From contig NZ_CP039253.1 in assembly GCF_004795915.1 (NCBI RefSeq), positions 744,001 through 808,000 of the forward strand: DNA of 64,000 nucleotides, given 5' to 3'. A model generated the notes under the pieces. That model made no database searches and was not told where the DNA came from. It saw nothing but the letters and a program-made list of their open reading frames with translations. Below, piece after piece: positions 1,795 through 24,524 of the stretch (position 1 is the first letter of the stretch; each line of letters begins with the position of its first letter). The DNA is from Rhodococcus sp. PAMC28707. Lineage in GTDB: Bacteria > Actinomycetota > Actinomycetes > Mycobacteriales > Mycobacteriaceae. Both the position numbers and the translations under genes were made by a program.

Positions 1795-2596
1795 GGGAGA
1801 TACCGTCTATCGGGCGGCGAACAAGCTGAGGGACGCGCTCGCCGGACGGGTACTGACGGGTTGCGATATTCGTGTACCTCGCTACGCGACAGTCGATTTC
1901 ACGGGTCGGACAGTGGACTCGGTGGACTCACGTGGCAAGCATCTCCTCATTCGGGTCGGCGGATATACGATCCACAGCCATTTGAAGATGGAAGGAACCT
2001 GGCAGGTCTATGCCCCCGGTGAAAGGTGGCGCAAGCCTGCGTTCCAAGCTCGCGCGATTCTGACGAACGGCAGTGCCTCCGCGGTGGGATTCGAACTGGG
2101 TGTACTGGACGTCGTGGAGGACGAAGACGAGGTCGTCGGATACCTCGGGCCCGATCTACTCGGATCGGATTGGGATGCGGCTCTCGCGATCGCCAATCTG
2201 GGCACCGATCCGACCCGGCCTATCGGAACCGCATTGCTCGATCAACGGATACTGGCAGGCCTGGGCAATGTGTACCGCAACGAGATCTGTTTTCTCCGCG
2301 GTATCGATCCGCGGACCCCAGTCGGTTCTGCAGGCGATCTACGCAAGATCGTCGACCTGTCGTTTCGCACGATCATGGCCAACAAGGATCGACATCAACG
2401 GGTGACCACCGGTGATCGACGTCCGGGGCGCCATTTCTGGGTATACGGACGGCAGAAGAAGCCGTGTAGGCGATGTGGCACACCGATCGAGTTCGGATTG
2501 CTCGGCGATAACCCGCTGGAGGAACGCCAGATCTATTTTTGTCCGTATTGCCAGCCCCCGCCGCCACGATTCTCGGTTGTACACGATTCCCCCTGA
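1787..2596 (+). CDS. nei2: Fpg/Nei family DNA glycosylase/AP lyase (endonuclease VIII-like Nei2)
   Basis: 269 residues. Removes oxidised bases and cleaves the abasic site by beta,delta-elimination in base-excision repair. The N-terminus is Met-Pro-Glu-Gly, and in this family Pro2 and Glu3 are the catalytic residues after Met removal, which fixes the start at the ATG overlapping lhr. The internal LDQRILAGLGNVYRNE segment (about residues 147-162) is the helix-two-turn-helix region. The C-terminus holds a four-cysteine zinc finger (CRRC near 225 and CPYC near 253). Length is usual for the family. Nei rather than Fpg/MutM is inferred from synteny with Rv3297 and from the sequence style. Confidence 0.9.
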   Translation: MPEGDTVYRAANKLRDALAGRVLTGCDIRVPRYATVDFTGRTVDSVDSRGKHLLIRVGGYTIHSHLKMEGTWQVYAPGERWRKPAFQARAILTNGSASAVGFELGVLDVVEDEDEVVGYLGPDLLGSDWDAALAIANLGTDPTRPIGTALLDQRILAGLGNVYRNEICFLRGIDPRTPVGSAGDLRKIVDLSFRTIMANKDRHQRVTTGDRRPGRHFWVYGRQKKPCRRCGTPIEFGLLGDNPLEERQIYFCPYCQPPPPRFSVVHDSP

Positions 2597-2675
2597 GCGC
2601 GATCTCTACTGTGTGTCGGTGAGTCGGCATCGGAATTATCCGTTCACTCGCCGGTAGTGACTACTGTCAATCGGC

Positions 2676-3218
2676 ATGGCACCGAACCTGCGAGACCTCC
2701 TGCACAGACCGCTGCTCTCACGTAGCAGCCCGCTGAGTCCCGGCAATGCCGCCAGTCGAATCAGTGCCTACGTGTACGGCAATGTCTTGATACTCGTGGC
2801 TCTCATTCCGATGACGTCACCGGCCGATCACACCTTTCAAGGTGTGGCAATCGTGCTCGGCACAGCGCTGTCCACCTTCGTCGCGCACGCGTTCGCCGAG
2901 GGCGTCGGTGAAACCGTGCGAACCGGGGCCAAACTCTCGAGGGTCGCCCGCATCGAACAACTTCGGGATTCCGTTCCGGTATTGAGCGCGGCCGTCCTCC
3001 CAGCGGGGCTCCTGGCGATCGGATGGGCAGGGTTGCTCGATCCAGGAGTCGGTCAGATCATGGCCGAAGTAACAGTCATCGCCAGAATTGCGTCGACGAA
3101 CTTCGTCGTAGGTCGACTCCGCGGCGAGAAGCCGACTCGTGGAACGTTTCTTGGATCCATCGTGCTCGCGTTAGTAGCCACCGCGGTGGTCGCACTCAAG
3201 TTGTTACTGACCCATTGA
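2676..3218 (+). CDS. Small integral membrane protein, function unknown
   Basis: 180 residues with about four hydrophobic segments (near 32-50, 57-75, 108-128 and 157-178) and basic linkers. The N-terminal stretch is polar and lacks a cleavable signal. I do not recognise the family. The gene ends 16 bases before a remnant of the glpD 3' end at 3235, so in an ancestor without the PucR-P450 block it would have faced glpD tail to tail. It follows nei2 after 79 bases without strong overlap, so it may have its own promoter. Confidence 0.6.
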   Translation: MAPNLRDLLHRPLLSRSSPLSPGNAASRISAYVYGNVLILVALIPMTSPADHTFQGVAIVLGTALSTFVAHAFAEGVGETVRTGAKLSRVARIEQLRDSVPVLSAAVLPAGLLAIGWAGLLDPGVGQIMAEVTVIARIASTNFVVGRLRGEKPTRGTFLGSIVLALVATAVVALKLLLTH

Positions 3219-3234
3219 CCGCACAGACAGCGCG

Positions 3235-3273
3235 CTACTTGCTCGGCTGCACCGGCTCCAAGATTTCCTGACG
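3235..3273. repeat. Remnant copy of the glpD 3' terminus (left direct repeat)
   Basis: 39 bases matching 6036-6074 at 37 positions, in the same orientation. Read on the minus strand both copies encode the same last 12 residues and stop (RQEILEPVQPSK). The differences are at 3256 (c versus t) and 3261 (a versus g). Beyond the repeat the flanks do not match. The two copies exactly bracket the PucR and P450 genes. Confidence 0.85.
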
Positions 3274-3405
3274 CACAGTGCCATTTACGGATTCCGAGGG
3301 TTGATCCGCCCCGATGGCTGCCTTCGAAAACCAAGCCCGAGTAGTCCTTATGCTGGGGGCAGGCCGGCGGTATCGGGGCCCAATTGTCCAGAGGGAGCGC
3401 AGAAA

Positions 3406-4665
3406 ATGGCGAGTGCAACACGGGCCGAAGAGTGGATGCGCAGTTACGTTGCCGAAAGTCTCTCCCACGCAGATATCGCACGGTTCGTCGACTATGTCGC
3501 GCAATCCATGGGGTCAGACGTCCCGGAGCTATCTACTGACGCAGATGTTCGGAGGGACTTACAGTTAGCTGTTCGCAGCCAATTCCGCAACATTCTTGCC
3601 GCTCGGCAGTCCGACAACGCTGCCCTGTGGGATGCTCCGGTAGCTGCGGAAGCTCATTCTCTTGCCCGAACCATCGCGCGCCGGGGACTCGAATTGCGAG
3701 TTCTCTCCCATCTGTACCACGCCGGTCACCGAGCGGTATGGCGGTTTGTGGCGGATTTCGTCAGCAATGCCGCTGTACCGGAGGATTTCAAGGTGGAACT
3801 CGTCGTCATGATGTGGAAGCAGACGAGCGAGATCATAAATTCGATGCTCGAGGAACTTGCCGCCACATACACGTGCGAACGAGAACGTCTGCTCAGCGGC
3901 ACATTCTCGATGCGGGTGAACACGGTCCGCGAAATTCTGGACGGCACATTGAACGACGCTGAGGTCGCATCGGTACAGCTGAGCTACCCGGTCCATCGCG
4001 TCAATACTGCCTTGGTGTTATGGACCACCGACCACGCAATCTCGATCGACTCGCGGATCTTCGAACCATTGGCATCGCGGCTGGCGCGGTCAGCATCAGC
4101 GACGGAGATCCTCTGCATCCCGTCCGGGGCCCGGGGGTTGTGGGTTTGGATGGTGGCCGGGCATGACGAAGAACCCACGATCGACTCGACGCTCGTGCCG
4201 CCCGGGGTGCGCGTCGCGGTGGGCAGGCCGGGAGAGGGCATCGACGGGTTCCGGCGAGCTCACAGGGAGGCTCTGGCTGCGCAAGAAGTCGCTATGCGGG
4301 CGCAACAGCGAATACCCGTCACCAGCTATCGAGACATCGAACTCGTCTCGATGCTCGTATCTCGTCCCGACGCGATGAACACCCTCATCGAACGCGAATT
4401 GCCTGGGCTCTTGGTGGACGACGAGCTGTCCGCGCGACTCCGGAAGACGCTACGCGCGGTACTGTCATGCCCGGGAAATCTCGAGGCCGCCGCTAGCCAG
4501 CTCGCCGTGCACAAAAACACTGTGCGATACCGCATCCAACAGATCGAGGAGCGCATCGGCCAGCGGATCACCTCCCGCTCGCTTCACCTCGAACTGGCAC
4601 TCGATTGCTTCGACACCTTCGGCTCGAACGCAATCACATATGTACCCTCCGAACAAAAAGATTGA
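3406..4665 (+). CDS. PucR-family transcriptional regulator
   Basis: 419 residues from the ATG at 3406, preceded at 3391 by the ribosome site gaggga; an upstream in-frame TTG at 3301 lacks such a site. The N-terminal half (about 10-170) is alpha-helical. The middle (about 180-310) resembles the degenerate GGDEF-like sensor module of the family. The last 60 residues hold the PucR-type helix-turn-helix, with AASQLAVHKNTVRYRIQQIE as the recognition region. Such proteins usually activate adjacent catabolic genes in response to a substrate. The P450 gene begins 82 bases downstream on the same strand, so it is the obvious candidate target. Flanking glpD-tail repeats suggest the pair arrived together. 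Confidence 0.85.
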   Translation: MASATRAEEWMRSYVAESLSHADIARFVDYVAQSMGSDVPELSTDADVRRDLQLAVRSQFRNILAARQSDNAALWDAPVAAEAHSLARTIARRGLELRVLSHLYHAGHRAVWRFVADFVSNAAVPEDFKVELVVMMWKQTSEIINSMLEELAATYTCERERLLSGTFSMRVNTVREILDGTLNDAEVASVQLSYPVHRVNTALVLWTTDHAISIDSRIFEPLASRLARSASATEILCIPSGARGLWVWMVAGHDEEPTIDSTLVPPGVRVAVGRPGEGIDGFRRAHREALAAQEVAMRAQQRIPVTSYRDIELVSMLVSRPDAMNTLIERELPGLLVDDELSARLRKTLRAVLSCPGNLEAAASQLAVHKNTVRYRIQQIEERIGQRITSRSLHLELALDCFDTFGSNAITYVPSEQKD

Positions 4666-13931: not shown

Positions 13932-15100
13932 CGAGCCGTCATCCGTGCTTCGACACCTTCGAGCAACCGGCTCCGTGTGTCTGCGTCGAGGGCCGTACGA
14001 ACCACCGTTCGCGCAAGCAATCGGGCGCCGTCGAGTACGGCGGTGTCCGCCGACTCGGTGATGCACGCTGCGGCGAACTCCGGCTGGTGCGTGACGGCGC
14101 CACCCGAGTCGAGACCGATCACCGGGTGGATCCCGGGCAGAACCTTCGTCACATTTCCCATATCGGTGCTGCCCAGAGGGCGAGATCCTTCCAACTCGAG
14201 TGCCAGGGGTGTGCGGCCGATCGACTCGACCTCATCTCGATAGGTGGCGGTGAGCCACGGATCGGGTGTCAGCTCTGTGTAGATCGGCGATACGGTGCGA
14301 ATCCGATGGGTGCAACCGGTAGCGATCGCACCCGCCTGGAAACACGCATGCGCCTTCGAGGTCAACGCAGCCAATGATTCCGAGGTGTTCGCGCGCAGGT
14401 AGTAGGCAAGCTCGGCGTGCCCGGGCACGATGTTGGGCGCGAGACCACCCTCGGTCACGATTCCGTGCAACTGTTGCCCCGGCGCCAGGTGCTGACGCAG
14501 CAGGCCGATGGCAACTTGACTGATGGTCACCGCATCACCGGCATTGATTCCCCACTCGGGGGCTGCAGATGCGTGTGCGGTGCGGCCGGTGAACGATACG
14601 GCTATGTCGGACAACGCAAGTGATGTTGCACCCACGATGTCGATCGGTCCGGGGTGAACCATCAGTGCCGCGGCAACACCGTCGAAGACGCCGCGTTCGA
14701 GCATCAGCACTTTCCCCCCACCACTTTCCTCGGCAGGAGTTCCGAGTACTCGAATGGTGATGCCGAGCCGCTCGGCGAGCGAAGCCAACGCAATCGCCGC
14801 GCCGGCAGCGGATGCGGCGATGATGTTGTGGCCGCAGGCGTGGCCGATCTCCGGCAATGCGTCGTATTCAGCGCAGAGTGCGATAACCAACTCGCCACTG
14901 CCATACGTCGCGGTGAACGCGGTCGGCAGATCGGCGACGCCAGTGTGGACGGCGAAGCCATGATCGCGAAGAAGGTCGCAGACCTTCGCTGCACTGCGGT
15001 GCTCTTCGAACGCGAGTTCCGGCTCGGAGTGAATCGAGTGCGACAACGCAAGCAGGTCGGGTGCAGCACGCTGCACACCAGCATCGGTCTCGGCGATCAC
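13928..15100 (-). CDS. amiB1: M20-family amidohydrolase (AmiB1-like)
   Basis: 390 residues, GTG start. Second member of the coupled amidohydrolase pair, related to p-aminobenzoyl-glutamate hydrolase/AbgB-type enzymes. Seen: CAEYDALPEIGHACGHNI (metal-binding cluster), PAEESGGGKVLM, GRTAHASAAPEWGINA in the dimerisation region, and a C-terminal SxDMGNV. Differs clearly from its partner, so it may act on another substrate or form a heteromeric enzyme with it, as AbgA/AbgB do. That is inference from pairing. Confidence 0.88.
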   Translation of the reverse strand: MIAETDAGVQRAAPDLLALSHSIHSEPELAFEEHRSAAKVCDLLRDHGFAVHTGVADLPTAFTATYGSGELVIALCAEYDALPEIGHACGHNIIAASAAGAAIALASLAERLGITIRVLGTPAEESGGGKVLMLERGVFDGVAAALMVHPGPIDIVGATSLALSDIAVSFTGRTAHASAAPEWGINAGDAVTISQVAIGLLRQHLAPGQQLHGIVTEGGLAPNIVPGHAELAYYLRANTSESLAALTSKAHACFQAGAIATGCTHRIRTVSPIYTELTPDPWLTATYRDEVESIGRTPLALELEGSRPLGSTDMGNVTKVLPGIHPVIGLDSGGAVTHQPEFAAACITESADTAVLDGARLLARTVVRTALDADTRSRLLEGVEARMTAR

Positions 15101-15150
15101 CGGCTCAGTCTGTCACTAGTGCTCTCCGCAGCTGAATTCAGCGCGGCCGA

Positions 15151-15855
15151 TTACTTGCCGAAGGCGAAATTACTCTCTTCGGTCGGTGTGTTCAGCGCGG
15201 CAAGAAGATCGCCGTGGATAGCGCGCTTGATTCCCGCAAGGTTGTCACCGCGCGTGCTCGTCAACGCCGTAGCGCGCTCGACAGCGGAGGACAACACGGC
15301 GTCCTCGGCAACAGCGACGTCGGCGATACCGGCTGCGACGGCGTCTGCTCCGCCGAAGCGTCGACCCGTGGTCATTGCCTCGACGGCCGTCTGCTTGGGG
15401 AGTCTGCTGGTGATCAGGGCTGACATGCCCACGGTGAACGGCATGTTCAGGTTCACCTCGGGCAGGCAGTAGAAGCCGCGGTCGGCGCGGACCACCCGGA
15501 AGTCGTGGGCCGTCGCAAACATGGCCCCTGCGCCGAACGCGTGACCTTGAACAGCTGCGACCGTCGCCATCGGGAACGTGAGCAGGCGGGTGTAGAGCGT
15601 GTGTACCCGGTCCAGGTAGCCGGTGATCTTGTCGAGGTTGGCAAAAAGCCAGTCGGTGTCGAGACCGTTGGTGAAGAATTTTCCGGTCGCGGTGGTCACC
15701 AGCGCCCCGGGCCCCGATATCGATTCGACCTCGTCGAGAAGAGCGTGAACGCCCTCGATCCAGTCCGGATGAAACCGGTTCTCCGGGTTCTGAGCTGAGT
15801 CCTGCGCACCGAGGTAAAGGATGTGCACGTCACCGTCATGTTCGAGATAAGGCAT
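15151..15855 (-). CDS. Enoyl-CoA hydratase/isomerase family protein
   Basis: 234 residues, slightly short for crotonases. Seen: [10 protein letters not shown] in the first oxyanion-hole region, [21 protein letters not shown] in the second, and [14 protein letters not shown]. This pattern resembles delta3,delta2-enoyl-CoA isomerases more than hydratases: the usual second catalytic glutamate position sits in PEVNL. Only six bases separate a TAGTAT box from the ATG, so the mRNA may be leaderless. Located 50 bases from amiB1 and divergent from deoD. Confidence 0.8.
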
Positions 15856-15973
15856 GGAGGGATACTACCCGGCGGTAACTTCAGCCGGTCAAGGTCTGCC
15901 CGCCCGAGCCTCCGCCGAGGGCAACGCATGGCCTACTGCAGAAACTGTCGCGCATCTCCTAGGGTTGCTCCCC

Positions 15974-16801
15974 GTGGCAACAACGAATATCGACGCAGCA
16001 GATCCGACCCTCGATCCGCAGGGCGCTGCAGCGCTCGCCGCAGCAGCGATTGCGGAAGCCACCGGCGTCGCCACTCATGCGGTGGCGATCGTGCTGGGAT
16101 CCGGCTGGCAGGCCGCAGCGGATCGTTTCGGTTCCCCGACTGCGAGCATCGCCATGGCCGACCTTCCGGGCTTCACTCCTCCCTCCGCATCCGGGCACTC
16201 CGGAACCGTCACCTCGGTGAGCGTCGACGGCACCCATACGCTGCTGTTGCAGGGCCGTACCCACGCATACGAAGGGCACGACTTGGCCCGAGTCGTCCAT
16301 CCGGTGCGCACGGCAATCGTGGCCGGAGCTACCACCGTCGTTCTCACCAACGCCGCGGGTGGAATCCGAGATGGAATGGACGTCGGCCAACCGGTTCTCA
16401 TCTCCGATCATCTCAATCTCACCGCACGCTCGCCGTTGACGGGTGCCGAGTTCGTCGACCTGGTCGACGCCTACTCGCCGGAACTTCGCGCACTGGCGCG
16501 CCGCATCGATCCTTCACTGGAAGAGGGCGTGTACGCGGGGCTGCCAGGGCCACATTACGAAACGCCCGCCGAGATTCGAATGTTGCGCACCATGGGTGCC
16601 GATCTGGTCGGTATGTCCACCGTCCACGAGACGATCGCAGCGCGGGCCCTCGGAGCGAGGGTTCTCGGGCTTTCTCTCGTCACCAATCTTGCCGCAGGAA
16701 TGACCGGTGACCACCTCGACCACAAAGAGGTGCTCGCAGCAGGGAAGACCGCAGCTTCGCGCATGGGTGAATTTCTGTATCGGCTGGTGTCGACGCTGTG
16801 A
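15974..16801 (+). CDS. deoD: Purine nucleoside phosphorylase (trimeric type)
   Basis: 275 residues from the GTG at 15974; the longer frame from 15854 lacks homology upstream. Phosphorolyses inosine/guanosine-type nucleosides to base plus (deoxy)ribose 1-phosphate. Seen: [14 protein letters not shown] phosphate loop, [27 protein letters not shown] and the family signature [28 protein letters not shown], with the purine-site region LVTNLAAG. Matches Rv3307. Overlaps pmmB by a GTGA, so the sugar-phosphate product is made next to a sugar-phosphate mutase. Confidence 0.93.
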
Positions 16802-19305: not shown

Positions 19306-19929
19306 TCAGCGCGGACCGAACTGGCGGTCGCCCGCATCACCGAGACCCGGAACGATGAAGGCATCGTCGTTGAGTCGATCGTCGATACTGGCGGTGACGA
19401 GCCGAACCGGTAGGCCCGAGTTCTCGAGTGCAGCGACCCCCTCGGGGGCAACCACCACGCAAATTGCAGTGACATCCGCCGCGCCTCGCTCCACCAACAA
19501 CTCGATGGTGCGCACCATCGAGCCACCGGTGGCAAGCATCGGATCGAGAACGTAGACCGGTGTGCTCGACAGATCCTCGGGCAGCGATTCCATGTACGGC
19601 ACCGGCTCATGGGTCTTCTCGTCGCGCGCCATTCCGACGAAGCCGACGCGGGACTGAGGAATCAAGCTGCTCGCCTTCTCGACCATGCCGAGCCCGGCAC
19701 GCAAGACCGGCACGAGCAGCGGCGGCTGCGACAGACGGGTGCCCTGCGTGAGAGCAACCGGCGTCTTCACCTCGAAGGTGGTGATCGCGGCGTCCCTGGT
19801 GGCCTCGTACACCAACATGTGGGTGAGCTGGCGCAGCGCCGACCGAAAAGTTGCGTTGTCGCTGCGCTCGTCGCGCATCGTCGTCAGTAGGGCAGCAGCC
19901 AAGGGATGTTCGACGACATGTGTATCCAT
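19306..19929 (-). CDS. upp: Uracil phosphoribosyltransferase
   Basis: 207 residues from the ATG at 19929, usual length; the longer frame upstream is antisense to the next gene. Converts uracil and PRPP to UMP. Seen: N-terminal [19 protein letters not shown], and the PRPP loop [13 protein letters not shown]. No Shine-Dalgarno is visible, but TATCCT ends seven bases before the ATG, the arrangement of a leaderless actinobacterial transcript. Matches Rv3309c. Divergent from the type VII-linked operon. Confidence 0.95.
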
Positions 19930-20026: not shown

Positions 20027-20326
20027 ATGGCAGAAGTATCGGCAACAGCGGCTGGAATACTCGCGTATTCCGCGACGGCCGGGACGATGTCCGCGCAAGT
20101 GACGAGCGCCGCCGCAGCGGCCACAGCCTGCGGTCCTGCCGTCCTGACGCCGGTGTTCGGGGCGATCGGCAGTGAGTTCCTCGCCGCATTCACCGGCACC
20201 CACTCCGCCCACACCGCTGCGTTGGCACGTCTGGCCGAAGTACTGGGCAGCATCGGTAGCGCAGCCGCTGGTTCGGCTGCCGGTTATCAGGCAACCGACG
20301 CAGCGGCAGCCGGGCGCCTACTGTGA
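20027..20326 (+). CDS. EspC-like type VII secretion substrate candidate (YxxxD protein)
   Basis: 99 residues, Ala/Thr/Gly-rich and predicted all-helical, with no signal peptide. A helix-turn-helix layout with an F-x-A-A-F segment near 51-55 is followed by the C-terminal motif YQATD at 87-91. In ESX systems YxxxD/E after the second helix is the export signal of EspC, PE and EsxB-type proteins. A gagggg site precedes the ATG. First gene of a four-gene operon in which each junction is a four-base overlap. Family placement is by motif and style only. Confidence 0.65.
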
Positions 20327-21501
20327 TCGACGTTCTGACTCGCCCGATCATCGACCTCCTCGGCGCCTTCGGATCGGGTGAGATTCCCACCGGTGGGCCC
20401 GCCGACGTCATTCGCTCTTCCTCCTCCGCATTGGATGCGGTCGAGCGGATCGGGGTGAACGCTGTGGCCGAGCTGGCAGGTTCATGGAGCGGGCCCGCAG
20501 CAGTAGCAGCAATCGAGCTGGCTGGGGCCGCCCACACGAGCGCCATCGCACTTGCCGATCACGGAAACGAGATCGCTGCGGTCGTGGATCGAGCGTGTGA
20601 GAAGGTCCAGACCGGAATTCTCGAACTGAACGGAATACTTCAGTCGTTCGTGTCCATTGCCGTCGCGGCAGCCCCAGTCCTGTTCACCCCTGCCGGTCAG
20701 TCGATGGTCATCGCGGCAGCCATCGAGCACTTGGAACGCGCCCTTGCCGTCGTGGCGCGGGTTCGAGCCGAGCTTGCAGTGCACGCAGCCGAGGTCGGGC
20801 GTTATCTCGCGCCGCCCTCGGTACCTGCCCCTGCAGGCACCGAAGCTTCGACACCACCTGCCGCAGCGCCACCGGCCGGGCCTGCACCGACAGCACCCGC
20901 GAGTTCGGATCCTGCAGGCCAGTTCGTGCGCAACTTCGCTCAATCGGTGTCCGCTCCCCCGTCGTCGATGACCCCGGACAGCGCCTCGAACCTGCTTTCC
21001 TCACCCAACGCAACGACGTCACCCACCGCAACGATGCCGAATCAGGGGCCGGCGATGTACAGCGGCGCAACACCACGAGAGCCCGGTGACGTCGGTGCGA
21101 AGGGCACGGGCGTCGAGGTCGCGCTACCTGACGGAAGCGTCGTGACGGCTCCGAACGAACAGGCAGCAGGCGCGGTCCGAAACGCACTGAGTCAACAGGG
21201 CACGCCGTACGTGTGGGGCGGCACCGAACCGGGCCGCGGCCTCGATTGCAGCGGCCTCACTCAGTGGGCCTACGCGGAGCAGGGGGTCGAGCTCCCCCGG
21301 CTGGCGCAGGAGCAAGATATCGGCACCCCGGTGACCCAGGACGAGCTCATGCCCGGAGATCTTGCAATCTGGGACGGCCATGTCGCCATGGTGATCGGTA
21401 ACGGACAATTCGTCGAAGCTGGAGATCCAGTGCAGGTCAGCGATATCCGAACGACCAACAGCGGTATGGGCTTCAAAGGTTTCTACAGGCCGACCGAATG
21501 A
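20323..21501 (+). CDS. WxG-domain NlpC/P60 peptidoglycan hydrolase, putative type VII-exported
   Basis: 392 residues, GTG start in a GTGA overlap. Three parts are seen. An alpha-helical N-terminal domain (1-160) contains Trp55-Ser56-Gly57 between two helices, the WxG turn of ESX substrates. A Pro/Ala/Ser-rich linker spans about 163-250. A C-terminal NlpC/P60 domain (280-390) has DCSG with catalytic Cys309, GDLAIWDGHVAMVIG with His353, and a later polar residue in the GQFVEAG strand. NlpC/P60 enzymes cut D-gamma-glutamyl-diaminopimelate bonds in the wall. No Sec or Tat signal is present, so export would fit the adjacent YxxxD partner. Confidence 0.8.
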   Translation: MIDVLTRPIIDLLGAFGSGEIPTGGPADVIRSSSSALDAVERIGVNAVAELAGSWSGPAAVAAIELAGAAHTSAIALADHGNEIAAVVDRACEKVQTGILELNGILQSFVSIAVAAAPVLFTPAGQSMVIAAAIEHLERALAVVARVRAELAVHAAEVGRYLAPPSVPAPAGTEASTPPAAAPPAGPAPTAPASSDPAGQFVRNFAQSVSAPPSSMTPDSASNLLSSPNATTSPTATMPNQGPAMYSGATPREPGDVGAKGTGVEVALPDGSVVTAPNEQAAGAVRNALSQQGTPYVWGGTEPGRGLDCSGLTQWAYAEQGVELPRLAQEQDIGTPVTQDELMPGDLAIWDGHVAMVIGNGQFVEAGDPVQVSDIRTTNSGMGFKGFYRPTE

Positions 21502-21821
21502 TCGAGATCTCGGCTACTGCTGCCACGCGCTCGGACTCGGTTCGCGTCCGAGCCACCGAAAGTGGGACCCCGACGGAAATCCATGTCGATCGAAGCGAAT
21601 TCCACTACGGTGGAACAGAATTGGCCCGAACAATCCTGCACTTGTGCGCGCGTGCCACCGAACTCGCGCAAGCCGAGCGCCGCACCCTTCTCGAAAACGA
21701 CGGTATGGAGGCCCACATTCTCGATCGCCTCGGGCTGCCGCGGGCATCGACGGTAGCCGCTGAAGAAAATCGACGACTGGACGTAGAACCTGCACCGACG
21801 AGTTGGCTGAGGTCGGTATGA
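21498..21821 (+). CDS. Small YbaB-fold-like protein of the type VII-linked operon
   Basis: 107 residues, ATG overlapping the preceding stop (ATGA). Strand-rich N-terminal half (SVRVRATESG then TEIHVD) followed by a long helix (TELARTILHLCARATELAQAERR) and a polar tail. This order resembles the YbaB/EbfC fold found in EspL-type proteins of ESX loci, where they may act as chaperones or nucleoid-associated factors. No catalytic motif. Assignment is structural inference from the sequence pattern. Confidence 0.5.
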   Translation: MIEISATAATRSDSVRVRATESGTPTEIHVDRSEFHYGGTELARTILHLCARATELAQAERRTLLENDGMEAHILDRLGLPRASTVAAEENRRLDVEPAPTSWLRSV

Positions 21822-22123
21822 CCGACAACGCCGTCGAAGCACTTGTGTCCCGAGCCGACCTCGCCCTGGACACCATGCACCTCGCGTCGGAGGGGCTCGT
21901 ACACCTGCGTATCACCAGGCATTCGGCAGATGGGCTGGTCGGTGTGACGGTCGACAGCACCGGGGCCATGGTGGGTCTGGAATTGGCCGAAGATCTCTCT
22001 CGCCAGTCCGCACGGAAACTCACCGAGTCCATCACCGGAGTCGCCGCCGCGGCTGCTCGCGACGCACTCGACCAGCGTCGGCGGATCCTCGAACGGATGC
22101 GAAGTTCACTATCGGCGACCTGA
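21818..22123 (+). CDS. YbaB/EbfC-like small protein of the type VII-linked operon
   Basis: 101 residues from the ATG at 21818, again overlapping the preceding stop by ATGA; a TTG at 21803 would add five residues. Helix (about 4-20), strands (about 28-52, with GLVGVTVDSTGAMVGLEL) and a long C-terminal helix, the YbaB arrangement. It closes the four-gene coupled set. The next gene starts 15 bases on, so the transcript may continue. Confidence 0.55.
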   Translation: MTDNAVEALVSRADLALDTMHLASEGLVHLRITRHSADGLVGVTVDSTGAMVGLELAEDLSRQSARKLTESITGVAAAAARDALDQRRRILERMRSSLSAT

Positions 22124-22138
22124 GATAGGCTTCCGGCC

Positions 22139-23392
22139 ATGGCTGGCGACATCATCCCGATCGAACTCTGTCTCACCCGCGGCAACTTCGTCACCCTCTG
22201 GGCTCCGGAGTGGCACGAAGGAGACGACGAGTGGGAAGCATTCCTCGGACGCGACGAGGACCTCTACGGATTCGAGGCCGTCGCGCACCTCGCGGCGTTC
22301 ATCAGAAACGACAGCGACAACGACCTCGTCGACCACCCCTCGTGGACCGTGGTCTCGGCTCTCGCAGCCAATGAACTCGAACCCGATGATCTTCACCGTT
22401 TCGACCTCGTCGGTGTTCCCGAACTGGTCGCCGAGGATCCCGACTCCGATGTCCTCAGCGAGCTCGCGGCAACCTTCGAAATGGTCCAGACCCTCGGTGA
22501 TGTCTGTGAACTGAGCACGGTCACCGCATTTTTCGCCGGTAACCCACATCTGGGATCAGTGGGAATGGGCGTGGAGGCATACCTGGGCAAGGACGGTCAG
22601 GACCTCTGGGATCGGATCGGCACCTCGATCGCGAAGAGTTGGGGTGCGGTGATCGACGCCATCGACTCGGTCGTGACGACACCCGATGTCGACAGCGCGG
22701 CCGTCGACGTGGCCGAAGCGGAACTGCTCGCGGCCGCGGAGAACATCGTCGATGTCGACGATGTATCGAACGACGACGAAACCGATGACGACGACGAGAC
22801 CGACGACGAAACTCCGGATCCCATCGCCGACGCAGCCGCGGAGGAGAGCTTCTGGACCTCTGTCGGCATCGACCCGATCCGGATCATCACCTCGGACGAA
22901 ACGCTGTACACACTGCGCTGCTACATCGACGACGATCCGATCTTCCTCGGCCGCGCAGGCGCCATCACCGTCTTCGGATCCGAACGCGCACTGGCTCGCT
23001 ACCTCGCCGACGACCATGACCACGAACTGGCAAAGGTGAGTACGTACGCCGAAGTACAGACCGCCGCGGTGGACGGATCGCTCCGTATCGAGGTGACCGA
23101 CGAGAACGTGTACGTCCTTCCCGGACTGGCGGACGATCTGGCCGACGGGCCCACGGCCGTCGACGCGGATCAGCTCGATCTTGCAGTGGAGTTGTTCACC
23201 GACGCAGCCGACTTCGCGGAGGACGATTCCGTCGAAACGGCACTGGCGAGTTCCACCCCGCTGGGCTGGTTCGTGTCCTACACTCTCGAGCCCGATCCGA
23301 ACAGGCTCGCGCCCAGTGCCCCGTTCCATGTCGAGTCGGAGGCGTGGCGTGAACTCGAGCGCGAGTTCGAGGGTCGTCTGCGCAAGGAGTGA
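22139..23392 (+). CDS. Conserved acidic protein, Rv3311-like, function unknown
   Basis: 417 residues, very rich in Asp and Glu. The N-terminal half (1-180) and C-terminal half (235-417) look like two alpha/beta modules joined by an extremely acidic linker (about 201-228, mostly Asp/Glu/Thr). No transmembrane segment or signal. Position and length match Rv3311 (about 420 residues), another unknown protein next to upp in M. tuberculosis. It starts 15 bases after the YbaB-like gene on the same strand and is convergent with add. Partner function with the secretion-linked operon is possible but unproven. Confidence 0.6.
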   Translation: MAGDIIPIELCLTRGNFVTLWAPEWHEGDDEWEAFLGRDEDLYGFEAVAHLAAFIRNDSDNDLVDHPSWTVVSALAANELEPDDLHRFDLVGVPELVAEDPDSDVLSELAATFEMVQTLGDVCELSTVTAFFAGNPHLGSVGMGVEAYLGKDGQDLWDRIGTSIAKSWGAVIDAIDSVVTTPDVDSAAVDVAEAELLAAAENIVDVDDVSNDDETDDDDETDDETPDPIADAAAEESFWTSVGIDPIRIITSDETLYTLRCYIDDDPIFLGRAGAITVFGSERALARYLADDHDHELAKVSTYAEVQTAAVDGSLRIEVTDENVYVLPGLADDLADGPTAVDADQLDLAVELFTDAADFAEDDSVETALASSTPLGWFVSYTLEPDPNRLAPSAPFHVESEAWRELEREFEGRLRKE

Positions 23393-23399
23393 AGTTCCG

Positions 23400-24524
23400 C
23401 TAGCCGATCAGTACTGCGTAGCCGGGCTTGACGATGTCGTCGATGATCTCGAGACGCTCGTCGAACGGGATGAAGGCCGACTTCATGGCGTTGATGGTGA
23501 AGCGCTCGAGATCGGTCCATCCGTAGCCGAATGTGGTGACCAGCTTGTGCATTTCACGGCTCATCGAGGTGTCGCTCATGAGCCGATTGTCGGTGTTCAC
23601 CGTGACACGGAACCGGAGTCTGGCAAGCAGATCGAACGGATGCTTCTGCAGGCTCTCCACGGCTCCGGTCTGCACGTTCGAACTCGGACACAATTCGAGG
23701 GGCATCCGCGTATCCCGAACGTAGGCGGCGAGTAGTCCCAGTGATGCCGTGCCGTCGGGCGCGACGGTGATGTCGTCGGTTATCCGGACACCGTGACCGA
23801 GCCGATCCGTGCCGCAGAATGCGACAGCCTCTTGAATGGACGGCAGACCGAAGGCCTCGCCGGCATGAATTGTGAAGTGTGCGTTGGCTGCTCGCATGTA
23901 TTCGAACGCGGCGAGGTGGCGACTCGGAGGGAACCCTGCCTCGGCACCGGCGATGTCGAAGCCGACGACGCCGCGGTCACGGAACCGTACGGCCAGTTCG
24001 GCGATCTCCCGCGAGCGTGCGGCATGTCGCATGGCGGTGAGCAGGCACCCCACCCGAATTCGCTTGCCTTTCACTTGCGCTGCAGATTCTCCGGCACGAA
24101 AGCCCGCCAGTACATGTTCGACGACCTCGTCCAGCGAGAGTCCCCGCTCGAGATGCTGTTCGGGTGCGAATCGAACCTCGGCGTAGACGACCGAGTCGTC
24201 GGCCAGATCCTCGGCGCACTCCTGGGCTACCCGCGAAAGACCCTCGGGCGTCTGCATCACCGCAACGGTGTGGGCAAAAGTCTCGAGATACCGCTCGAGC
24301 GAACCGCTGTCGGCGGCATTGCGGAACCACTCCCCCAGCGCCGCGCCATCGGTCGCTGGAAGACCGTCGTATCCGCACTGATCGGCGAGTTCGAGAACCG
24401 TCTGCGGGCGCAATCCACCATCGAGATGATCGTGCAGCAGCGCTTTCGGAGCAGTCTTGATGGAACTGGAGTCGAGCGGCATCGCGCCGCCGGAAAGTGT
24501 CGAAAAAATCTCGGCGGTGCTCAT
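23400..24524 (-). CDS. add: Adenosine deaminase
   Basis: 374 residues. Deaminates (deoxy)adenosine to inosine, feeding DeoD. Seen: zinc motif [10 protein letters not shown] near 31, [11 protein letters not shown] with the catalytic Glu region, [21 protein letters not shown] and NTDNRLMSD, all hallmarks. A TACCGT box ends seven bases before the ATG at 24524, so a leaderless start is possible; an internal ATG at 24482 gives a protein closer to the mycobacterial length. Same strand as the cdd-deoA pair and 45 bases after deoA, so probably one operon cdd-deoA-add. Confidence 0.94.

Follow-up and report, generated by a model that had tools for sequence, protein, structure and literature searches.

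An EspC-Like Protein and a WxG-NlpC/P60 Hydrolase Encoded in One Gene Row of Rhodococcus sp. PAMC28707: A Candidate Type VII Export Pair with an Enzymatic Partner

Introduction

The DNA analyzed in this study (the window) is a stretch of 64,000 nucleotides from Rhodococcus sp. PAMC28707, bases 744001-808000 of a single-contig genome of 4.73 Mb, whose nearest named relatives, judged by the hydrolase described below, are Rhodococcus. At 20027-22123 of the window, on the + strand, lies a row of four genes, termed here espC, hyd, yb1, and yb2, with products of 99, 392, 107, and 101 amino acids (aa) and a 4-base overlap at each of the three junctions. We propose, with a probability of about 0.7, that this module encodes an ESX-type export pair resembling EspF/EspE, in which the large partner would be an enzyme. 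The proposal draws on the observed gene content, domain architecture, and kept catalytic residues, on wide conservation and, in two genera, on linkage of the whole module to eccC.

Published systems are compared here as they are presented in the passages cited. The closest are the ESX-1 sets EspE-EspF-EspH(-EspL) and EspA-EspC-EspD, in which a small protein of the EspC/EspF type is likewise paired with a larger one, both being stabilized by YbaB-like or related proteins (PMC6107294, PMC6319747). The module differs from them in being ESX-4-type and in that its large partner carries NlpC/P60. In the ESX-1 gene order the small partner gene is not the first, unlike in the module, which begins with espC. 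PE25-PPE41 with EspG is a further system to compare, as PPE41 turned up among the fold matches to the hyd WxG domain; yet none of the module proteins has a PE or PPE assignment in Pfam, and the chaperone candidates of the module have the YbaB fold and are not EspG. With RipA, RipB, RipC, and RipE hyd shares the NlpC_P60 domain, its Cys-His-Glu residues being those of RipA, RipB, and RipE (PMC12067865), and its best NCBIfam match is RipC, far below the cut-off of that model. RipA and RipB are described with signal peptides (PMC12067865), whereas hyd has a WxG-type domain instead. In the Staphylococcus aureus T7SSb, too, a type VII system has a wall hydrolase of its own, EssH, but this enzyme is of the CHAP type, carries a Sec signal peptide, and is itself secreted independently of the type VII machinery (PMC13059805). 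In SapM-SatS, an export cargo gene stands directly upstream of satS, as here; SapM, however, is a phosphatase with a signal sequence, and no EspC partner is described for it in the cited passages (PMC6333443).

Relatives of hyd are already named in UniRef as a fusion, ‘bifunctional WXG100 family type VII secretion target/C40 f...’ (Prescottella equi; P0083, P0085); this is a protein name only, silent on the module, its chaperones, and an ESX link. Among open-licence papers, we found no description of the module or of its ESX and SatS links. An earlier interpretation of this DNA, referred to below as the sequence-only reading, had called the pairing with a fused hydrolase the best candidate for an undescribed system here; within that literature this holds for the module and fails for the fusion, as the WXG100/C40 architecture is annotated in databases.

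Domain Architecture of the Proposed Export Pair

The first two genes and their parts are the following:
20027..20326, + strand: espC-like gene, 99 aa, PF10824 family, proposed small export partner (Pfam profile, aligned members)
20285..20299, + strand: YQATD, a YxxxD-type motif, residues 87-91, 8 residues before the protein end (sequence)
20323..21501, + strand: hyd, 392 aa, WxG helical domain with fused NlpC/P60 (Pfam; structure model with mean pLDDT 80.4)
20323..20805, + strand: N-terminal helical domain of hyd, residues 1-161 (model, profile, Foldseek)
20485..20493, + strand: WSG, hyd residues 55-57 (WxG in 71 of 74 relatives)
20848..21102, + strand: hyd linker, residues about 176-260, mostly of low model confidence (structure model)
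21112..21498, + strand: NlpC/P60 catalytic domain, hyd residues 264-392 (Pfam, alignment, model, fold matches)
21247-21249, 21379-21381, and 21415-21417, + strand: catalytic residues C309, H353, and E365 of hyd (alignment)

The espC product matched PF10824, the EspC family, with an E-value of 1.6e-7 (32.1 bits, over the curated cut-off of 23.5), and the same family was matched by 34 of 35 aligned EspC partners at E up to 0.1. The YxxxD/E motif was present in 45 of 73 EspC relatives. Shuffling one sister EspC produced a YxxxD/E after residue 60 in 3% of cases; taken by itself, the motif is therefore weak evidence, and the PF10824 match is the stronger.

The fold class of hyd is given as predicted by the structure model, in which helices 26-54 and 58-115 form a hairpin with WSG at its turn, followed by a third long helix at 123-161. 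A profile of this N-terminal domain (N-domain) retrieved ESAT-6 with an E-value of 1.6e-4, and the Foldseek match to PPE41 had an E-value of 0.02 (prob 1.00). The window N-domain scored under the curated cut-offs of both WXG100 (PF06013; 14.1 bits vs. 27.3) and EspA_EspE (PF18879; 14.6 bits vs. 27); by profile it is related to WXG100 and EspA/EspE, and is not filed as a member of either. A weak match to the PPE family was seen in 4 of the 18 N-domains compared. No Sec-type signal was seen in hyd, as judged from hydropathy only: the maximal 12-residue value within the first 40 residues was 1.31, close to the family median of 1.46, and values of at least 2.0 occurred in 2 of 74 relatives.

At the other end of the protein, the match to NLPC_P60 (PF00877) was well over the cut-off (E 5e-20, 71.9 bits vs. 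23). C309, H353, and E365 were invariant across 37 alignment rows, E365 being assigned as the third catalytic residue by its spacing. The C-terminal part of hyd also matched phage tail families (PHROG 329, E 1.3e-23), which would fit a phage-derived lysin or tail remnant. We regard such an origin as highly improbable, given the synteny: the hyd matches are confined to the part that holds the widespread NlpC domain, espC, yb1, and yb2 gave no PHROG match at E 0.001, and the chromosomal slot is conserved.

Most of the sequence-only reading is confirmed for these two genes. The coordinates, lengths, and overlaps it gave are those of the sequence and the list of open reading frames (ORFs), its positions for YQATD, WSG, C309, and H353 are right, and its EspC-like first product, its fused NlpC/P60 hydrolase, and the lack of a Sec signal agree with the data above. 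The family search that it had named as a possible refutation was run and came out in its favor, placing the first protein in the EspC family. Its view of the two as a type VII substrate pair gains from the PF10824 matches of the partners, the WXG100 and EspA/EspE profile kinship, and the PPE41 fold match.

Linkage to Type VII Secretion

Genes for EccB, EccC, EccD, and WXG100 proteins lie together at about 860-872 kb of the same genome, separated from the window end by about 52 kb and from the module by about 94 kb. This locus is ESX-4-type, the number resting on one EccB and on a passage in PMC11217815 that ranks ESX-4 as the most ancestral of the ESX systems and gives it as the sole type of the non-mycobacterial Actinomycetota. 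The window itself holds no EccB, EccC, or WXG100 gene, as the sequence-only reading had said of ESX machinery in general. Its conclusion that the module is an orphan did not stand: besides the ESX-4-type locus of this genome, the whole module was found inside ESX loci in two other genera.

In the first of these (locus L121 of genome G013, the one genome of genus g13 looked at), the genes after eccC are espC, hyd with its NlpC domain, yb1, yb2, and an EsxB-like gene. In the second (L122 of G024, genus g24), espC, hyd, yb1, and yb2 again follow eccC, eccD and eccB are nearby, and satS is on another contig; the hyd product does not differ from its counterpart in Rhodococcus sp. D2-41 (UniRef taxon Speluncibacter). 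Because the four genes stand directly 3′ of eccC in two genera, their position ties the module to type VII secretion. A third locus (L123) has a paralogous set that lacks the enzyme (yb1-yb2-espC-WxG), at a distance of about 5 kb from eccB.

Such linkage is rare by the lists compared. When the listed N-domain matches were compared with most of the listed EccB matches, 1 of 64 N-domain matches sharing a contig with a compared EccB lay within 25 kb of it, among the matches listed. Outside this comparison, weaker N-domain matches stand ~6 kb from EccB in two genomes (G046 contig 26 and G021 contig 112). G013 came to light by another route, since no EccB was detected in it and its EccC is at a contig end. 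Co-occurrence with ESX was also considered as a test of the link and set aside as uninformative, since EccB is near-universal (198 of 201 family genomes).

Two observations weigh against the export-pair reading. YxxxD/E is absent from 28 of 73 EspC partners, so the motif is not load-bearing for the family; in many Nocardia partners, L replaces the Y and the D is retained. Further, in genomes G102 and G033, no EccB, EccD, full EccC, or strong WXG100 pairs were detected, and both keep espC and hyd, which weakens a strict dependence on ESX. The module genes of G102 all look intact. In G033, the hyd end is altered and none of yb1, yb2, and satS adjoins it, a state compatible with decay of the module. 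Alternatively, the two genomes may reflect recent loss or gaps.

The YbaB-Like Proteins

The two small genes 3′ of hyd are:
21498..21821, + strand: yb1, 107 aa, YbaB-like core at residues 1-70 and a C-terminal part with conserved W103, proposed chaperone (model, fold matches)
21818..22123, + strand: yb2, 101 aa, YbaB family, proposed chaperone (Pfam, profile)

We read yb2 from the ATG at 21818; the ORF list has a longer TTG form from 21803. Its product is over the cut-off of YbaB (PF02575; E 8.1e-6, 26.4 bits vs. 25.5), and its profile retrieves solved YbaB proteins and Rv3716c (E 5.4e-8). For yb1, the same family gave an E-value of 0.18, under the cut-off; 7 of 23 yb1 members matched it at E up to 0.1, the window protein not among them, and a search of the PDB with the yb1 profile gave no YbaB match. 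The first fold matches of the yb1 model were of YbaB type, with weak E-values of at least 0.013. Both genes had been called YbaB-fold-like in the sequence-only reading; Pfam bears this out for yb2, and fold matches with weak E-values speak for it in yb1.

Precedents for such proteins come from ESX-1. EspH, YbaB-like by prediction, binds EspE and is needed for EspE/EspF secretion; EspD, an EspH homologue, stabilizes EspA/EspC; EspL, with a YbaB domain, stabilizes EspE, EspF, and EspH; and EspH and EspL have been put forward as chaperones of EspE/EspF (PMC6107294, PMC6319747). As YbaB-like EspH and EspL and the EspH homologue EspD serve these pairs, yb1 and yb2 are candidate chaperones of the module, and the earlier suggestion that it has its own is supported by the EspH/EspL precedent. 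YbaB/EbfC is also described as a DNA-binding nucleoid protein (PMC9610160), and yb1 and yb2 could on that ground be nucleoid proteins, with NlpC acting in the cytosol on internal or recycled muropeptide. The EspC partner, the WxG domain, the PPE41 fold match, and the ESX linkage make this improbable.

The SatS Homologue and the sapM Slot

A fifth gene of the row, which the sequence-only reading had not named, starts 15 bp 3′ of yb2 and possibly belongs to the same operon:
22139..23392, + strand: satS homologue, 417 aa (NCBIfam SatS, solved SatS structure)

Its product aligned over the whole length of the NCBIfam SatS model (E 4.7e-159, 529.9 bits, under the equivalog cut-off of 700) and matched the solved SatS C-domain 6dnm (E 4.7e-67). 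The NCBIfam model is named for mycobacteria; the window protein is called a homologue here. SatS is a cytosolic export chaperone that binds SapM, whose preprotein carries a signal sequence, and in the SecA2 pathway it also has an effect on Mce proteins; in Mycobacterium tuberculosis, sapM and satS form an operon (PMC6333443).

By this precedent, hyd could be a signal-less client of SatS and SecA2, exported without ESX, its ESX-like domains being merely ancestral. The gene adjacency fits, both here and for 75 of 150 N-domain matches, among the matches listed, which have satS on their strand no more than 6 kb away. So do espC-hyd-satS sets without yb genes, present in one genome each of genera g8, g10, g17, and g29 and in three of g28 (in L085 and L086, satS is 1.2-3.2 kb further from espC-hyd), as does the retention of hyd and satS in G102, in which ESX was undetected. 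Against it, SapM has a signal sequence (PMC6333443), whereas none of Sec type was seen in hyd; the EspC partner is kept; and the module sits in an ESX locus in two genera, one of them with satS on another contig. Moreover, satS must have other work, because all 201 family genomes carry it and 29 of them had no N-domain match at that search depth. We therefore consider SatS-dependent non-ESX export unlikely and prefer export of the pair by ESX.

The slot after upp had been named in the sequence-only reading as the place of sapM in M. tuberculosis. One mycobacterial-type genome looked at (L092, genus g28) does have a 309-aa ORF between upp and satS, read as a SapM-like phosphatase, which fits the published sapM-satS operon (PMC6333443). 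The hyd-bearing members of g28 group with named mycobacteria in domain trees. In L096 and L097, satS is present with no module match within the fetched stretch. In one same-genus genome (G054 contig 18, 45388 to 60917), the spacing between hyd and satS is ~15 kb vs. ~1.3 kb in its neighbours.

Conservation and Distribution

Of 63 named loci from Rhodococcus, Nocardia, and mycobacteria, 54 contained all five genes, espC, hyd, yb1, yb2, and satS, and the search of related genomes that the sequence-only reading had named as a check thus recovered its four genes together with satS. By 3′ ends, their order was constant in the named loci, with upp on the left. The dN/dS of the four genes was 0.11-0.42 against the more distant Rhodococcus loci L017, L018, L020, and L063, and 0.10-0.60 over all six loci tested. 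Because dN/dS is low and the five genes stand together in so many loci, the set is more than a chance arrangement.

Among the nine incomplete loci, four (L032, L036, L044, L071) are at or near contig ends. Three mycobacterial loci (L062, L064, L065) are without yb genes, and their espC was found by eye and by profile, below the threshold of the five-gene count. In the remaining two, L019 and L015 (the latter likewise close to a contig end), the ORFs 3′ of hyd look transposase-like or phage-like, by eye; in L019 (9221-16834) phage-like ORFs stand directly 3′ of hyd, in the place expected for yb1, yb2, and satS.

Across the 201 family genomes the N-domain was found in 172, and beside satS in 14 of 30 genera among the matches listed, to which the fetched loci add g29 (L094) and g4 (L120). 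This spread does not fit the earlier description of the locus as a variable spot. Fetched module loci had yb1-yb2 in L080, L090, L091, and L093, and gave no yb match in L081, L082, L083, L084, L085, L086, and L094. In an order-wide survey outside the family, 5 of 54 genomes had an N-domain match, the best with an E-value of 2.4e-7, so the N-domain in this form looks family-restricted. Trees of 35 N-domains and 27 NlpC domains left the deep forks unresolved as to whether the ESX-linked or the satS-linked place is older, and for this reason we claim no direction of module movement.

Proposed Role of the Module

We suggest that the EspC-like protein and the WxG N-domain of hyd would pair as a helical pair of the PE/PPE or EspF/EspE kind. 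The yb1 and yb2 proteins, perhaps with the SatS homologue, may keep this pair export-ready in the cytosol, as the roles of EspH, EspD, EspL, and SatS suggest, and EccC would export it, to judge from the gene position in the two other genera. Outside the cell, the flexible linker could let the NlpC/P60 domain reach the peptidoglycan and cut its D-Glu-meso-DAP bond; hyd would then be a D,L-endopeptidase, its Cys-His-Glu residues matching those of RipA and RipB.

In a related protein (L099, 2534-3625, - strand), the WxG N-domain leads into an SLT transglycosylase domain (E 2.7e-11). As two different wall-cutting domains ride on one delivery domain, a wall-directed role is favored. Other paralogues in the family genomes (L087, L088, L089, L095, L098) combine the same N-domain and an EspC-type gene with a tail lacking a Pfam enzyme domain; four of these paralogues look alike over a C-terminal stretch when compared by eye.

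That the parts behind the WxG domain are swappable (NlpC, SLT, tail), and that other WXG-led clusters occur in this genome, would also suit an interbacterial toxin, in which case ESX would deliver NlpC/P60 to neighbours as a polymorphic C-terminal toxin and yb1 or yb2 would be the immunity protein. We find this quite unlikely: the NlpC domain is strongly conserved (91% identical to that of R. yunnanensis over 115 columns), and the yb proteins have the YbaB fold and were not found in several hyd-bearing genomes. The enzyme most likely serves local, self-directed wall remodelling tied to ESX function or growth, as it is single-copy in this genome, widely conserved, and without an evident immunity gene. 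Our confidence in this exact use is lower than in the export pair itself.

The everyday cargo of ESX-4 is poorly known. The module offers a concrete candidate for such cargo, an enzyme with a predictable activity in non-pathogenic hosts, and suggests an origin for SatS as well as a general role of YbaB-fold proteins as type VII chaperones beyond ESX-1. A possible but tentative extension is that a D,L-endopeptidase was the ancestral ESX-4 cargo in mycolic-acid bacteria and that SatS began as its chaperone; SapM would later have taken the slot in some mycobacteria, drawing SatS into SecA2 export. If true, this would join two export pathways that are held separate.

Genomic Setting and Additional Loci

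The row is flanked by two genes on the opposite strand:
19306..19911, - strand: upp, divergent left neighbour and conserved flank; the ORF list also has a longer form to 20253
23400..24524, - strand: add, convergent right neighbour, a flank kept in many of the loci compared

A scan of the locus for promoters and terminators gave no promoter-like site and one terminator-like site, not above shuffles, and a PADLOC search gave no match at E 0.01.

Two further sets were noted elsewhere in this genome, both in L079 (genome bases 3655001-3675000). One (14854-16400) is an EspC-family ORF (PF10824, E 2.4e-6) whose 243-aa partner shows weak similarity to WXG100 and EspB; the other (2134-4093) is polymorphic-toxin-like and consists of a WXG100 protein, a 429-aa protein just under the WXG100_2 cut-off, and a small neighbour. 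In two mycobacterial-type genomes (L101, L102), an NlpC/P60 ORF adjoins DUF4226 ORFs, a possible split-gene cousin of hyd, which may be the RipE locus.
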